Assembly: GCF_002079305.1 (NCBI RefSeq)
Contig: NZ_CP015039.1
Span: 1,757,501 to 1,821,500 of the forward strand
Reading direction: 5' to 3'
Source of the DNA: Rhodovulum sp. P5
GTDB taxonomy: Bacteria; Pseudomonadota; Alphaproteobacteria; Rhodobacterales; Rhodobacteraceae
DNA: 64,000 nucleotides
Shown here: one piece after another, positions 48,837 to 54,386 of the stretch
Position numbering within the stretch: the first letter of the stretch is position 1
How the letters are laid out: every line of letters starts with the position of its first letter
The notes under the pieces: generated by a model
Told to the model about the DNA's origin: nothing
Seen by the model: the letters and a program-made list of their open reading frames with translations, nothing else
Database searches by the model: none
Made by a program: the position numbers and the translations under genes

Positions 48837-49913
48837 TCAGGCCATTCCGCCGCCGATCAGCCGATCCGCAATCTGGCCATAGGCATCCGCGACGGGGCCC
48901 TCGCCCAGCGCGACCGGCGTGCCGGAATCGCCCGCAAGCCGCACGTCCAGCGCAAGGGGCAGCGCGCCAAGGAACGGCACGTCCATCTTCTCTGCCTCGG
49001 CGGCGACCCCGCCATGGCCGAAGATATGCGCCTCATGCCCGCAATTGGGGCAGACATAGGTGGACATGTTCTCGATCAGCCCCAGGATCGGCGTCTTGAG
49101 CTTGCCGAACATGTCGATGGCCTTGCGCGCATCCAGAAGCGCCACGTCCTGCGGTGTGGATACCACGATGGCGCCGGTCATCTTCGTGCGCTGGCACAGC
49201 GTCAGTTGCACATCGCCGGTCCCCGGCGGCAGATCGACGATCAGCACATCAAGCTCGCCCCAGTTCACCTGCCCCAGAAGCTGTTGCAGCGCGCCCATCA
49301 GCATCGGCCCCCGCCAGATCAGCGCGGCGTCCTCTGGCAGCATCAGCCCGATGGACATCATCGTCACCCCGTGCAGCTTCAGCGGATCGATCCGCTTGCC
49401 ATCGGGCGAGGACGCCGGACGCGTGGCGCCCATCATCCGCGGCTGGGACGGCCCGTAGATATCGGCATCCAGCAGACCGACCCGCCGGCCCTTGCGCGCC
49501 AGGGCCACGGCGAGGTTGCTGGCCACCGTCGATTTTCCGACGCCGCCCTTGCCGGAGGCAATCGCGAGGATGCGGTCGATCCCCGCCGGGTTCTCCGGCC
49601 CGGCCTCGGGCGTGGGGTGTTGCCCGATCTTCAGGTTCGGGGGATCCTTGGGCGGCGTCTGCCCGCCGCCATGGGCAGTCAGCACGACCGACGCCTTGGT
49701 GACACCCGCAAGCGCCTCTACCGCCGCCTGTGCCGCGGCCCGCACAGACCCCATCTGGGCCGCCACCCCCGCATCCGGCGCCTCGATCACGAACTTGACG
49801 ACGTCGCCCTCGACCGAAAGCGCCCGGATCATGTCGCGCGCCACGGGATCCCCCCCGTCGGGCAGCGCGATTCGGGACAGGGCGGCCAGAACATCTTCGC
49901 GAGAAACGGGCAT
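48837..49913 (-). CDS. mrp: Mrp/ApbC-type iron-sulfur cluster carrier ATPase
   Basis: Mrp proteins carry Fe-S clusters to apoproteins in an ATP-dependent way. The 358-residue protein has an N-terminal DUF59-like domain (about 1-80, [20 protein letters not shown]), then a deviant-Walker P-loop [11 protein letters not shown] (about 121-131), [27 protein letters not shown], and the cluster-binding CPNC within [17 protein letters not shown] 49913 has AAGGAAG before it; the in-frame sequence upstream is not conserved. It points towards mraZ, so its transcript may run into the UpsM region; no terminator was seen between. Confidence 0.93.
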
Positions 49914-50221
49914 GGGGCTTCCTTTTCTTAACCAATCCGTCATGGGAATTACTTGGCCAGCCCCGGAAAAAGGGCAAGGGCGTTTCACGCCTGCACGATC
50001 TTGCAGCAGCGCCCCGCAAAGCGCCCACAGAAATGTCAGCAACACTTATGCATCTTCCGCATGGCGGCATTTACCCCGCAAGCCATTGTGCAAGCGCAGC
50101 ATAAGCGTATCTTCAGATCAACGGCGGCGGGACGGGCTGCCAACGGGAAACGGTTGAAATCTACTGGTCTGACGCTGACGGGACAGAAGGTCCGGTCAAG
50201 ACATCGGCCGCACGAACGATC
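49914..50221. other. Gene-free stretch upstream of the tandem small RNAs
   Basis: These 308 bases should hold the divergent promoters of mrp (minus) and the small RNAs (plus). A TTGAAA at 50154-50159 could be a -35 of the heat-shock sigma type, but no convincing -10 follows. No DUF1127 (CcaF1-like) gene, which precedes CcsR RNAs in Rhodobacter sphaeroides, is present. Confidence 0.35.
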
Positions 50222-50297
50222 GGGAAACCCCTCCTCCTCCCTGGGTTTCCTCATCTCGCGGCGACACCTACCTCCTCCCAGGTGTCGCCGCTTTTTT
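50222..50297 (+). ncRNA. CcsR/'cuckoo' family small RNA, copy 1
   Basis: Two hairpins stand in series. The first is GGAAACCC (50223-50230) with GGGTTTCC (50243-50250), its loop carrying CCTCCTCCC (50233-50241). The second is a perfect 12-pair stem (50258-50269 with 50280-50291), its loop carrying CCTCCTCCC (50271-50279), followed by six T residues (50292-50297), so it is also the terminator. Two hairpins each with a loop-exposed CCUCCUCCC is the definition of the CcsR/cuckoo RNAs, stress-induced in Rhodobacter sphaeroides. The loop motif is complementary to ribosome-binding sites. The 5' end is estimated. Confidence 0.8.
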
Positions 50298-50333
50298 ACG
50301 ATACGGGGTGCAGACCTTGCATCCTATCCGAAT

Positions 50334-50419
50334 ACGGCGGGACGTCTCCTCCTCCCTGACTGTCCGCCGTTGACAAGACGGCGGCGCCTCCTCCTCCCTG
50401 GCGTCGCCGTTCCTTTTTT
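50334..50419 (+). ncRNA. CcsR/'cuckoo' family small RNA, copy 2
   Basis: The second copy has the same design. Hairpin one is ACGGCGG (50334-50340) with CCGCCGT (50364-50370), inner GTC/GAC pairs, and CCTCCTCCC in the loop (50348-50356). Hairpin two is an eleven-pair stem with one wobble (50378-50388 with 50400-50410), CCTCCTCCC in the loop (50390-50398) and TTTTTT at 50414-50419. Stem sequences differ from copy 1 while the loops are identical, as expected for functional loops. It lies 157 bases before the diguanylate cyclase gene. Confidence 0.8.
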
Positions 50420-50575
50420 CCAAGGACATGCCGGTCAGGCCGCGCGCCCAATACGCCGCCAAGGCGCAGGTATCCAAGCGAAAAAACGCTTTCTGGGTTT
50501 TCTGTAACTTATTCTAAAGCACGTTCGTCAATACTCCTTCGCAAGCGGTCAGGACGACCGTTCGGGGAGGATCCG

Positions 50576-52006
50576 ATGCACAAGCGCCTCAACACCGGAA
50601 AACCGGTCCATCTGAATCACCGCACTGTCGCCGCCTTGACGATCTTCTCGATCGTGGGGGCGGGTCTTCTGTGCAGTGTGACGAGGGCAGATAACGGCTG
50701 GGGCCCCTACCTGCACCCGATCTCGGCCGCGGGGTATTTCGTTCTCGGCCTCGGCCTTCTGTGCGACAACCGGCACACCGCGCGGACCTGTCTGGTCGCC
50801 GGACTGCATGCCGCGATTGCGCTGATCTCGCTCCAACGCCTTGCAGAGGCGTTGGTGCCGGGTTGGTTCGTGCTTCTGAAGGCCCCGGTCTTTCTGAACG
50901 TTCAGGACCAGATGGGGATCAATGGCAATTTCTCGGTCGAAGCCGCGATTTCCCTGATCCTTCTCAACCTCGCCTTTCTCTCAAGACGCATGGACCACCG
51001 GGTTTCGCTGACCCTGACCGTCGGCGCATGGGGCGCGGCGACCATGTTCCTGCTGCAGGCGGTGTTCGGCCTTGTCCTATGGCATACCGAATTCTCCGTC
51101 TTCTCGCTGTCCTGCACCGTGGTCGCGACGATGGCCCATACCTACACGCTGCGCGACATGCCGCTGCTGCGGCCGATCTTTTCCCACAGCAACCACGGCG
51201 CGATCATCCGCGGCCTGCTGGTGGGCGCGCTTGTCATCCCCTGGCTTGCCGGGTTCATCTACTTCAATCTCGCCGAGATCTCGCGCATCGACCACCACGC
51301 GCTGCAACTCGTCTTCGGCCTGATCGGCTGGTCGATGATGGGGCTGGTGCTGTTCACCGGCCAGCTTCTTGAAACGGCAAGCGAGGCGATGCGCTTTGCC
51401 GCCGACCATGACTTCCTGACCGGCATCATGAACCGAAGCGGTCTGACCCGTGCCGTTGCCGCAGGCCGGTCGGGGGTCGGGATCATCATGTTCGACCTCG
51501 ACAACTTCAAGCGGCTGAACGACAGGTTCGGCCACGAATTCGGGGACCGGGCGCTGCGAACGGTCGCCGATACGGTCAAACCCCAGTTGCAGCAGGGCGA
51601 CCTGTTCGCGCGCTGGGGGGGCGAGGAATATCTGATCGTTGCCGATTGCGACGACGAGACGACCCTGGTCGCTATTGCCGAGCGTCTGCGCAGCAGTATC
51701 GAGGAGGACGTTGGCCAGTCGCTCGACCAGCTGCGCTTCCCGATCACGGCGTCCTTTGGTGTCAGCGTCCTGCAGCCGGGCGAACCCGGCCTCGAACCCG
51801 CGATGGAGCGGGCGGACCAGGCACTTTATCTGGCCAAGCGCCTTGGGCGGAATCGCGTTTGCGCGTCGTCGGCCCTGATCACCCTGTCGGCCTTTCCGGG
51901 CCACGCCTCCGGGGCCGGCCTTCCGCGGCCGGTCGCCCAAGACAGTTGCATCGCGACAAGCATCATCGAAACCCCGACGTCACCGGCGCTGGCCCACAGT
52001 CGCTGA
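50576..52006 (+). CDS. Membrane-bound diguanylate cyclase (GGDEF), no I-site
   Basis: This 476-residue protein makes the second messenger c-di-GMP. The N-terminal 275 residues form about seven to eight membrane spans, a sensor part with no named family. The GGDEF domain follows, with DFLTGIMNRSGL, FDLDNFKRLNDRFGHEFGD (quoted in part) and an intact active-site GGEEY (about 347-351). The inhibitory RxxD site five residues before it reads QQGD, so the arginine is missing and product inhibition is not expected. A 60-residue tail of low complexity ends the protein. ATG 50576 has GGGGAGG. It lies downstream of the two CcsR-like RNAs. Confidence 0.92.
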   Translation: MHKRLNTGKPVHLNHRTVAALTIFSIVGAGLLCSVTRADNGWGPYLHPISAAGYFVLGLGLLCDNRHTARTCLVAGLHAAIALISLQRLAEALVPGWFVLLKAPVFLNVQDQMGINGNFSVEAAISLILLNLAFLSRRMDHRVSLTLTVGAWGAATMFLLQAVFGLVLWHTEFSVFSLSCTVVATMAHTYTLRDMPLLRPIFSHSNHGAIIRGLLVGALVIPWLAGFIYFNLAEISRIDHHALQLVFGLIGWSMMGLVLFTGQLLETASEAMRFAADHDFLTGIMNRSGLTRAVAAGRSGVGIIMFDLDNFKRLNDRFGHEFGDRALRTVADTVKPQLQQGDLFARWGGEEYLIVADCDDETTLVAIAERLRSSIEEDVGQSLDQLRFPITASFGVSVLQPGEPGLEPAMERADQALYLAKRLGRNRVCASSALITLSAFPGHASGAGLPRPVAQDSCIATSIIETPTSPALAHSR

Positions 52007-52022
52007 AACCGGCCCGCGGGCG

Positions 52023-54386
52023 TCAGAACGGCACGTCGTCGACGTTACCCGCGGCGACCACAAAGCGGGCGACCACCTTCTTCGGCCCTGACGTGTCAAA
52101 GTCGATGTCCAGCTTGTCCCCCTCGATCCCCGTGACGATGCCATAGCCGAATTTCTGGTGGAACACGCGCTCCCCCGTGGCGAAGGCGGCAATAGCCTCC
52201 GCGTCGATGACGACCGTACGGCTTTCGCGCGGTTGGGAGACGGGCCGCGACGCGCTTCGGCTTTGCAGCCGCCGCCAGCCCGGCGAATTGTAGACATCGG
52301 CCCGCGCCGCGGCCTCCTCCACCGTCGATTGCGCCGGCGCGGCGGCGCCGTAGCCGCCCCCGTAAAGGCCCGGGGGGGTGAGCACATCCACATGCGCAGA
52401 CGGCAGTTCATCGATGAACCGCGAGGGCAGCGCCGACTGCCACTGGCCATAGACCCGGCGGTTCGCGGCAAAGGACACCGTGCAGACCTCCTCGGCCCGG
52501 GTCAGGCCGACATAGGCAAGGCGGCGCTCTTCCTCTAGCGCGGTCAGCCCGTTTTCGTCCATCGCACGCTGGCTGGGAAACAGCCCATCCTCCCAGCCCG
52601 GCAGGAACACGACGGGAAACTCCAGCCCCTTGGCGGCGTGCAGCGTCATGACCGAGATCTTCGCGCCGTGGTCTTCGGATTCATTGTCCATGATCAGCGC
52701 CACATGTTCGAGGAACCCTTGCAGGTTGTCGAACCCCTCCAGCGCCTTGACCAGTTCCTTGAGGTTTTCCAGCCGCCCCGGTGCCTCTGGCGTCTTGTCG
52801 TTCTGCCAATGGGCGGTATAGCCGGAGTCGTCGAGGATACGCTCGGCCAGTTCGATATGGCTTTCGGTGGCGTCCAGCGCCGCACCATGCCAGCGCCCGA
52901 TCCCCTGCAACAGCGCCGCCAGTTCCTTCGCGCCCTTGCCCGTGATCCCCTTGGTTTCCAGCAGCAGCCGCGCGCCCTCCACCAGCGGCACGCCATTGGC
53001 CCGCGCCATGGTCTGGATCTTCTGCTGCGCCTTGTCGCCAAGGCCGCGCTTGGGCGTATTCACGATCCGCTCGAATGCCAGATCGTCATCGGGGCTGACG
53101 GCGAGGCGGAAATAGGCCATCGCGTCGCGGATCTCCATCCGCTCATAGAACCGGGGCCCGCCGATCACGCGATAGGGCAGGCCGATGGTCAGGAACCGGT
53201 CTTCGAACGCCCGCATCTGGTGCGACGCACGGACGAGGATCGCCATCTCGTCCAGCGAATAGGGGCGCAGCCCACGGGAGCCGCCCTGCATCGCCTCGGC
53301 CTCTTCGCCGATCCAGCGGGCCTCTTCCTCCCCATCCCAATGACCGATCAGGCGGACCTTCTCGCCCCCCTCGGCCTCGGTCCAGAGTGTCTTGCCCAAC
53401 CGGCCCTTGTTGGCTGCGATCAGGCCGCTGGCCGCCGCAAGAATATGGGGTGTGGAGCGGTAGTTCTGCTCCAGCCGGATCACCTGCGCGCCGGGAAAGT
53501 CCTTCTCGAACCGCAGGATGTTGCCGACCTCTGCGCCCCGCCAGCCATAGATCGACTGGTCGTCGTCGCCCACGCAGCAGATGTTGTGATGACCGCCCGC
53601 CAGAAGCCGCAGCCACAGATACTGCGCGACGTTGGTGTCCTGGTATTCGTCCACAAGGATGTAGCGGAACCAGCGGCGATATTGCGCCAGCACATCCGGC
53701 TGGGCCTGAAAGATCGTGACCATGTGCAGAAGCAGATCACCGAAATCGACCGCGTTCAGCGTTTTCAGGCGGGCCTGATACTCCGCGTAAAGCTCCACCC
53801 CGCGGCTGTTGAAGGCCGAAGCTTCGGCCACCGGCACGGCATCTGGCACCCAGGCGCGGTTCTTCCACCGGTCGATGATCCCGGCCAGCTGCCGCGCGGG
53901 CCAGCGCTTTTCATCGATATTGGCCGCGACGATCAGCTGTTTCATCAGCCGGATCTGGTCGTCGGTATCTAGAATCGTGAAATTCGACTTCAGCCCCGCC
54001 AGTTCCGCATGGCGGCGCAAAAGCTTCACGCAGATCGCGTGGAAGGTGCCCATCCACTTTAGTGGCTCATACAAATGGAAAGGCGTCTTTGACAGCCGCT
54101 CCTTCATCTCGCGCGCCGCCTTGTTGGTGAAGGTCACTGCGAGGATCTCATTTGGCCTTGCCCGCCCTTGCATGATCAAATGAGCGATCCTAGCCATAAG
54201 CGCCTTGGTCTTTCCCGTACCGGCGCCCGCCAGCATTAGCACTGGCCCTTCCAGCGTCTCGACCGCGGCCCGCTGGGCGGCGTTGAGATCGTCAAGATAG
54301 GGCGCAGGCCGCGCGGCCATGGCTCGGGCGGAAAGCGGGACGGGATCGTCGGCCTCGAAGGCCTCTGCATCATCAATCGGCGACAT
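52023..54386 (-). CDS. uvrD: ATP-dependent DNA helicase UvrD/PcrA
   Basis: UvrD/PcrA unwinds DNA 3' to 5' in mismatch and excision repair. The 787-residue SF1A helicase has the Q motif LNAAQRAAVE (34-43), Walker A AGAGTGKT (53-60), AVTFTNKAAREMKERL (motif Ia), VDEYQDTN (motif II, near 245), DDDQSIYGWRGAE (motif III), LEQNYRST (motif IV) and VMTLHAAKGLEF (motif V). The C-terminal FGYGIVTGIEGDKLDIDF matches the Tudor-like domain by which PcrA/UvrD binds RNA polymerase. Length is a little above typical. It is convergent with the diguanylate cyclase gene (16 bases). Confidence 0.95.
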   Translation of the reverse strand: MSPIDDAEAFEADDPVPLSARAMAARPAPYLDDLNAAQRAAVETLEGPVLMLAGAGTGKTKALMARIAHLIMQGRARPNEILAVTFTNKAAREMKERLSKTPFHLYEPLKWMGTFHAICVKLLRRHAELAGLKSNFTILDTDDQIRLMKQLIVAANIDEKRWPARQLAGIIDRWKNRAWVPDAVPVAEASAFNSRGVELYAEYQARLKTLNAVDFGDLLLHMVTIFQAQPDVLAQYRRWFRYILVDEYQDTNVAQYLWLRLLAGGHHNICCVGDDDQSIYGWRGAEVGNILRFEKDFPGAQVIRLEQNYRSTPHILAAASGLIAANKGRLGKTLWTEAEGGEKVRLIGHWDGEEEARWIGEEAEAMQGGSRGLRPYSLDEMAILVRASHQMRAFEDRFLTIGLPYRVIGGPRFYERMEIRDAMAYFRLAVSPDDDLAFERIVNTPKRGLGDKAQQKIQTMARANGVPLVEGARLLLETKGITGKGAKELAALLQGIGRWHGAALDATESHIELAERILDDSGYTAHWQNDKTPEAPGRLENLKELVKALEGFDNLQGFLEHVALIMDNESEDHGAKISVMTLHAAKGLEFPVVFLPGWEDGLFPSQRAMDENGLTALEEERRLAYVGLTRAEEVCTVSFAANRRVYGQWQSALPSRFIDELPSAHVDVLTPPGLYGGGYGAAAPAQSTVEEAAARADVYNSPGWRRLQSRSASRPVSQPRESRTVVIDAEAIAAFATGERVFHQKFGYGIVTGIEGDKLDIDFDTSGPKKVVARFVVAAGNVDDVPF

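Follow-up and report, generated by a model that had tools for sequence, protein, structure and literature searches.

The question raised by this locus is why a tandem pair of CcsR/cuckoo-like RNAs in Rhodovulum sp. P5 lies between mrp and a diguanylate cyclase gene with no DUF1127 gene in front of it. The window, that is, the whole 64,000-nucleotide stretch analyzed here (C1:1757501-1821500), belongs to a 4.47 Mb genome of five contigs, and an initial annotation made from its sequence had considered the location unusual and the cyclase a possible target of the RNAs. Our analysis indicates, with a probability that we place at roughly 75%, that the locus is the Rhodovulum form of the DUF1127-CcsR (CIN1-type) locus of Rhodobacteraceae, which lost its DUF1127 gene, holds two RNA units and would be transcribed from the old ccaF1-type promoter as far as hairpin 4, yielding RNAs that would block ribosome sites in trans. 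The pair is of a known kind and stands at a common address, and is set apart by the lineage-specific loss of the neighboring protein gene and by an unexpected operator resemblance.

Table 1. Features of the mrp-uvrD region in Rhodovulum sp. P5 (positions in the window)
Feature	Position	Strand	Basis and remarks
mrp (Fe-S carrier P-loop ATPase), divergent, locus anchor	48837-49913	-	Pfam PF10609, PF01883
Box 1, TGCATCTTCCGCATGGCGGCATTT	50049-50072	+	Alignment; PhaR-like operator CTGC-N3-GCAG, degenerate in this genome
Putative core promoter	50086-50113	+	-35 TTGTGC 50086-50091; -10 TATCTT 50108-50113; predicted start near 50120
Box 2, TTGTGCA-N3-GCAGCA	overlaps -35	+	Alignment
Unit 1, hairpin 1 (H1)	50218-50255	+	Loop CCTCCTCCC 50233-50241; fold and motif
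Unit 1, hairpin 2 (H2)	50258-50291	+	Loop 50271-50279; T6 tract 50292-50297; fold and motif
Unit 2, hairpin 3 (H3)	50334-50370	+	Loop 50348-50356; fold and motif
Unit 2, hairpin 4 (H4)	50377-50411	+	Loop 50390-50398; with terminator tract to 50419
Cyclase start site GGGGAGG	50564-50570		
GGDEF diguanylate cyclase, between RNA pair and uvrD	50576-52006	+	Pfam PF00990
uvrD/pcrA-type helicase frame, convergent	52023-54386	-	Name from sequence, not from Pfam scan

The nonamer CCTCCTCCC occurs four times in the window, always on the forward strand and within 166 bases, compared with an expectation of 0.84 copies per window (sd 0.85) and none of 100 shuffles reaching four. Each copy lies in the loop of a predicted stable hairpin (Table 1), with separate folding energies of -15.3, -24.4, -16.5, and -23.8 kcal/mol for H1 to H4. 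H2 runs into TTTTTT and H4 into TTCCTTTTTT, tracts that would allow either hairpin to end transcription in this genome, and the exact loops, the fold and these tracts confirm the initial description of four hairpins with identical loops, two of them terminators. Across the genus, at least six T within 10 nt behind H4 are found in 15 of 16 Rhodovulum genomes (five in genome G013), while a T run of at least five behind H2 is present in only 5/16, and H2 is therefore not a conserved terminator. The nonamer alone is not diagnostic, since exact copies were found at 50 places in the genome versus 41 for the reversed control.

Cuckoo RNAs consist of two to four adjacent hairpins, each with the loop CCUCCUCCC, whose stems are variable. 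Part of this definition is given in section 2.7 of PMC3927594 (excerpt), and the locus conforms to it, with four hairpins in two units, kept loops and covarying stems. A permissive Rfam scan of positions 49900-50700 returned CcsR1 (RF02791) twice, with 53.4 bits (E = 3.7e-12) and 43.9 bits (E = 2.3e-9), both units matching the model over its full length (positions 1-83 of 83) and both missing the gathering threshold of 65.3 bits; a scan of the whole window at gathering threshold gave no match. The second best family, alpha-r14/NfeR1 (RF02344), scored 51.7 and 43.5 bits, under its gathering score of 58.8. The proposed CcsR/cuckoo identity is thus supported by the E-values, the loop motif and the covariation described below, although both units, matched over their full length, score below gathering. 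Overall, these results support the assignment of the pair to two CcsR/cuckoo units despite the missed Rfam score.

The search with RF02791 was extended to 41 genomes, of which 25 had matches at E ≤ 0.01 and none reached the gathering score, and two adjacent units were found in all 16 Rhodovulum genomes. A single-unit model built from 24 units of 12 of these 16 genomes recovered the pair in 16/16, 12 of them matching by construction. When the pairs of all 16 Rhodovulum genomes were aligned over 42 named base pairs, 97.0% of the alignment cells were paired versus 92.8% (sd 0.4) in shuffles, a figure on which the structure is favored because it was drawn from the fold of this genome. Moreover, 15 of the 42 pairs had changed on both sides, versus 5.4 (sd 1.5) in shuffles, a value matched by none of 500 shuffles, and slid registers of the structure all scored far lower. 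The core stem of H1 is paired in 16/16 with one of its eight pairs varying, H4 has 100% of its cells paired, and all 10 counted pairs of H3 vary, both partners having changed in eight of them. None of the 16 genomes shows variation in loops 1 and 3, and exact CCTCCTCCC is present in loop 2 of 14/16 and loop 4 of 9/16. Of the 64 loops, 63 preserve TCCTCCC (UCCUCCC), and only loop 2 of G008 departs from it. What was observed is thus the opposite of loops being lost on preserved stems, since the loops are kept and the stems change with compensation. These observations also bear on the reading of the hairpins as mere terminators or spacers of the mrp-uvrD interval, whose common loops would be a by-product of shared descent. 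H4, and H2 in this genome, do resemble intrinsic terminators, and the end of the convergent uvrD lies 50-210 bases from the last loop in 5/16 genomes; however, H1 and H3 lack a T-tract in this genome and yet carry loops invariant in 16 genomes, and the H3 stem changes freely with compensation, which makes this reading highly improbable.

The location regarded as unusual proved to be one that such RNAs commonly occupy in related genomes. Scanning with Mrp yielded 52 named loci, and in these and in further relatives the common order upstream of mrp is a divergent mrp, a DUF1127 gene and the cuckoo hairpins; uvrD runs convergently wherever a match to it lay within reach. A profile built from the loci themselves was used to look for a DUF1127 frame ahead of the first loop. 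Of the 45 named non-Rhodovulum loci with at least one exact loop, 42 have such a frame between mrp and that loop. The three without it, Psychromarinibacter sediminicola (L074), an uncultured Rhodobacteraceae (L095), and Actibacterium mucosum (L121), indicate that the loss is not confined to Rhodovulum. Outside the 45 stand L086 (with 189 upstream bases only), L107 (DUF1127 and no exact loop), L109 and L120 (neither), as well as L072, L077, and L078, which are Rhodovulum loci from the same genomes as G007, G008, and G006. Five further loci outside the genus all have the gene (5/5). One of the loci (L075, CP059262.1) is titled Exiguobacterium profundum (MAG) and shows a typical Rhodobacteraceae mrp-DUF1127-cuckoo-uvrD arrangement, and its name is probably wrong.

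Within Rhodovulum, all 15 congeners have a relative of the uvrD frame downstream of the RNA pair, and DUF1127 is present at the locus in 2/16 genomes (G002 and G009, both fragments scoring as DUF1127 in Pfam); the mrp-RNA interval of this genome and of the 13 other congeners holds no DUF1127 match. The absence noted in the initial annotation therefore stands (there is no match in the window, and the four DUF1127 matches of this genome lie elsewhere on C1), and the peculiarity of the locus is the gene loss and not its position. All 16 Rhodovulum genomes retain between one and five DUF1127 genes in total. In a search for a DUF1127 remnant in the leader, neither this genome nor G010 rose above the level of shuffles, and the positive control, G009 versus G002, stood out. 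Relocation of the locus gene was considered and set aside: against the G002 and G009 locus proteins, none of the four DUF1127 proteins of this genome scores above 26.6 bits, compared with 53.5 bits between these two; however, one of the four (L039) reaches 31.2 bits with the locus protein of 'Rhodobacter lobularis', as high as some true locus proteins, so that sequence alone is not decisive on this point. The tree on which a count of the DUF1127 losses would rest is poorly supported.

Pfam confirmed mrp and a diguanylate cyclase as the neighbors of the pair, and the start site GGGGAGG of the cyclase was found as initially described. Nevertheless, no cyclase match was found in the RNA-uvrD gap of the 15 congeners, this genome being the only one of the 16 to carry it there. 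The gap (window 50420-52020) varies from species to species: no frame of at least 90 residues separates the last loop from uvrD in G001, G006, G009, G010, G011, and G015, a cupin-like frame is found in G002, and a minus-strand frame of 271-363 residues is found in six genomes (names by eye), with the contents of G013 and G014 not assigned to a class. The cyclase is probably a late arrival at the locus, and a role for it in the function of the RNAs is therefore unlikely. The suggestion of control over the neighboring cyclase, exerted by the RNAs through read-through or loop pairing with its GGGGAGGA start site, draws on its adjacency and on a predicted pairing of -14.9 kcal/mol between a loop decamer and the cyclase leader, but is weak: besides the restricted occurrence of the cyclase, the terminator-like H4 stands before it, stronger pairing is predicted for the starts of a formate-THF ligase and a FadL-like protein (-21.3 and -19.9 kcal/mol), and this genome holds 152 copies of GGGAGGA-N3..11-ATG versus 15 of the reversed pattern, so that the cyclase start is not special. 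We consider this form of control quite unlikely.

The same abundance of strong Shine-Dalgarno sequences makes target predictions weak. Four of the 50 exact motif places are the pair itself and the 46 others were assessed mainly opposite ATG; three of them provide a full 9-nt complement ahead of the ATG of a long frame. The candidates are a formate-THF ligase (PF01268; GGGAGGA in 11/16 Rhodovulum, this genome included), a FadL-like protein (PF03349; GGGAGGA in 9/16) and an FAD oxidoreductase-like frame named from its appearance. CcsR RNAs modulate C1 metabolism in Rhodobacter sphaeroides (excerpt of PMC8625941), with which the putative formate-THF ligase target would fit, although it is only a lead.

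Aligned from the mrp start codon, the 16 Rhodovulum genomes, with or without DUF1127, share one strongly conserved block. Most positions of box 1 are invariant, and ATTGTGCA (50085-50092), GCAGCA (50096-50101), TAT (50108), and CAAC (50119-50122) are invariant in 16/16, these promoter elements being shared by G002 and G009, which retain the gene. The same block with and without the gene indicates that the loss of DUF1127 left the promoter in place, with the RNAs next to it. Additionally, 59 of 69 loci (56/66 without the duplicates of three genomes counted twice) have an exact TGCA-N6-GCAT (box 1 and/or 2) in the stretch from mrp to the first loop, versus 0.7% of shuffles. An LsrB box lies at the position matching box 1 in NfeR1 of Sinorhizobium meliloti (excerpt of PMC10746234). 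LsrB was considered as the regulator here because the box and its distance agree with NfeR1. It was set aside because an excerpt of PMC11975290 reports it as confined to Rhizobiales and because the VtlR consensus GCAT-N3-TG-N3-T shows no fit by eye.

As a family, the promoters of the cuckoo loci fit PhaR better than LsrB, judging from sequence resemblance. In each of six Rhodovulum genomes, the phasin promoter holds two TGCTGC-N3-GCRGC boxes, one before and one behind the -35 element, and a PhaR matrix was derived from these 12 boxes. Applied to the mrp-cuckoo interval, the matrix gave a median of 13.6 bits in the 69 loci, which share descent, versus -0.5 in 340 flanking segments (95% level, 7.6; 99% level, 11.6 bits), with 49/69 loci (47/66 without the double-counted genomes) and 8/16 Rhodovulum above the 99% level. 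The spacer of the box varies (ATA, ATG, GTT, AGG, GCT) around a preserved palindrome, in line with CTGC-N3-GCAG, the PhaR site published for R. sphaeroides and given there as CTGCNNNGCAG (excerpt of PMC12542648). In G024, a relative of another genus and one of four genomes picked for good boxes in which exact patterns were searched, the exact TGCTGCNNNGCRGCA occurs six times: twice ahead of phaP, once at the cuckoo locus, and three times elsewhere.

A phasin gene is also accompanied by a cuckoo hairpin. In this genome, a single hairpin with terminator lies in the phasin 3'UTR within the phaP-phaR gap (inside C1:3820048-3820121; 27.9 bits, E = 0.02), and it recurs with different stems and the same TCCTCCTCCCT loop in G003, G005, G007, G011, and G012, that is, in 6/16 Rhodovulum genomes in total; a weak match in G008 lacks this loop and was not counted. 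A similar hairpin is found in this gap in G024 and none in G021.

The promoter might therefore be under the PHB-sensing repressor PhaR, whereby the RNAs would follow the carbon-storage state besides general stress, as the matrix scores, the published site, the G024 pattern and the hairpin behind phaP suggest. The proposal is tentative: this genome reaches 7.0 bits at best (box 2), below the 95% control level, half of the Rhodovulum genomes do not exceed the 99% level, the observed median is reached by 3/340 flanking segments, the loci share descent and the exact-pattern genomes were chosen for good boxes. Besides, RpoHI/RpoHII control has been published for R. sphaeroides (excerpt of PMC10253847), and the same bases could also be read as a LysR-type T-N11-A motif by comparison with NfeR1 (excerpt of PMC10746234). 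More speculative still, and rather doubtful as a whole, is the wider model in which the Rhodobacteraceae cuckoo/CcsR locus would be a member of the PhaR regulon. PHB build-up would remove PhaR from the DNA, so that phasin and anti-Shine-Dalgarno RNAs would be made together, with the phasin-3'UTR hairpin adding to them, and carbon storage would be linked to a brake on the translation of uptake and C1 genes; the local DUF1127 protein would have been removed from this circuit in most Rhodovulum, and the operator would be decaying in some, as here.

Other cuckoo-like copies were also detected. A second two-hairpin RNA with terminator lies on contig C2 (151 kb; 53254-53337, minus strand, 49.7 bits, loops with CTCCTCCC), directly behind parA-parB-like frames and before a Phd-like antitoxin frame (names by eye), and an extra two-hairpin match is found at G013:C1:2308265. 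On the Paracoccus jeotgali plasmid pCBA4604-01 (L168), an annotated DUF1127 gene has a cuckoo-like match about 300 bases behind it, and further matches were seen on plasmids of Sulfitobacter sp. THAF37 and Qingshengfaniella alkalisoli, with no DUF1127 gene listed nearby. One distant DUF1127 gene of this genome (L042, G000:C1:3398654) has CCGC-N3-GCAG within 200 bases upstream, like the PhaR-like boxes.

Returning to the preferred reading of a DUF1127-CcsR locus that lost its protein gene, the following course can be proposed. The DUF1127 gene between promoter and RNAs would have been lost, with the cluster standing at two units. RNA polymerase would start near 50120, at the promoter that precedes DUF1127 and the RNAs in relatives, and would produce a leader of about 100 nt followed by the four hairpins, stopping mainly at H4 and, in this species, partially at H2. 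The transcript may be trimmed by RNase E, as we infer from R. sphaeroides, and the single-stranded CCUCCUCCC loops would pair with the G-rich Shine-Dalgarno sites of several mRNAs and block their translation in trans. Such action on ribosome sites is plausible and agrees with the published action of the sibling RNA NfeR1, which has the same loops and silences ntrB at its ribosome site (excerpt of PMC10746234). With the local DUF1127 protein gone, maturation and turnover would have to proceed unaided by it or rely on a distant DUF1127 paralogue. Rhodovulum thus offers a natural experiment, with CcsR-type RNAs standing without an adjoining DUF1127 gene in 14 of 16 genomes (one per species), which allows testing what CcaF1 is needed for. 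Besides, the likeness of the operator to the phasin promoter makes it cheap to test whether carbon storage feeds into a known stress RNA.

The cuckoo RNA family and the CIN1 locus were reportedly described by Reinkensmeier and Giegerich in 2015. A literature search, whose scope lay outside the core cuckoo, CcsR, and CcaF1 papers, returned no report of the Rhodovulum pair or of a link between PhaR and CcsR. The locus resembles CIN1 in its adjacent hairpins with a common loop and variable stems, in its orthologous position beside mrp (and uvrD), and in a neighborhood like that of the DUF1127-cuckoo loci of 42 named relatives, and it differs in the absence of the DUF1127 member, which would be expected as a co-directional gene directly upstream of the RNAs. 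The CcsR1-4 RNAs of R. sphaeroides derive from the 3'UTR of ccaF1, and RNase E and CcaF1 take part in their maturation (excerpts of PMC8625941 and PMC10253847). As a functional class, CcsR RNAs are characterized by induction under stress, processing by RNase E and action on mRNAs. The compared loci included three other species named Rhodobacter (L112, L114, and L117) in place of R. sphaeroides itself, and these show the order mrp, DUF1127, RNAs. The present pair shares with CcsR1-4 the tandem two-hairpin units with CCUCCUCCC loops and the full-length Rfam match, but has two units instead of four, no DUF1127 gene in front, and scores below gathering. Finally, alpha-r14/NfeR1 of S. meliloti has the same anti-Shine-Dalgarno loops and places its TGCA-N6-GCAT box at -72 to -60, compared with -71 to -58 from the predicted start here, whereas it has three hairpins and is activated by LsrB according to the excerpted account (PMC10746234).
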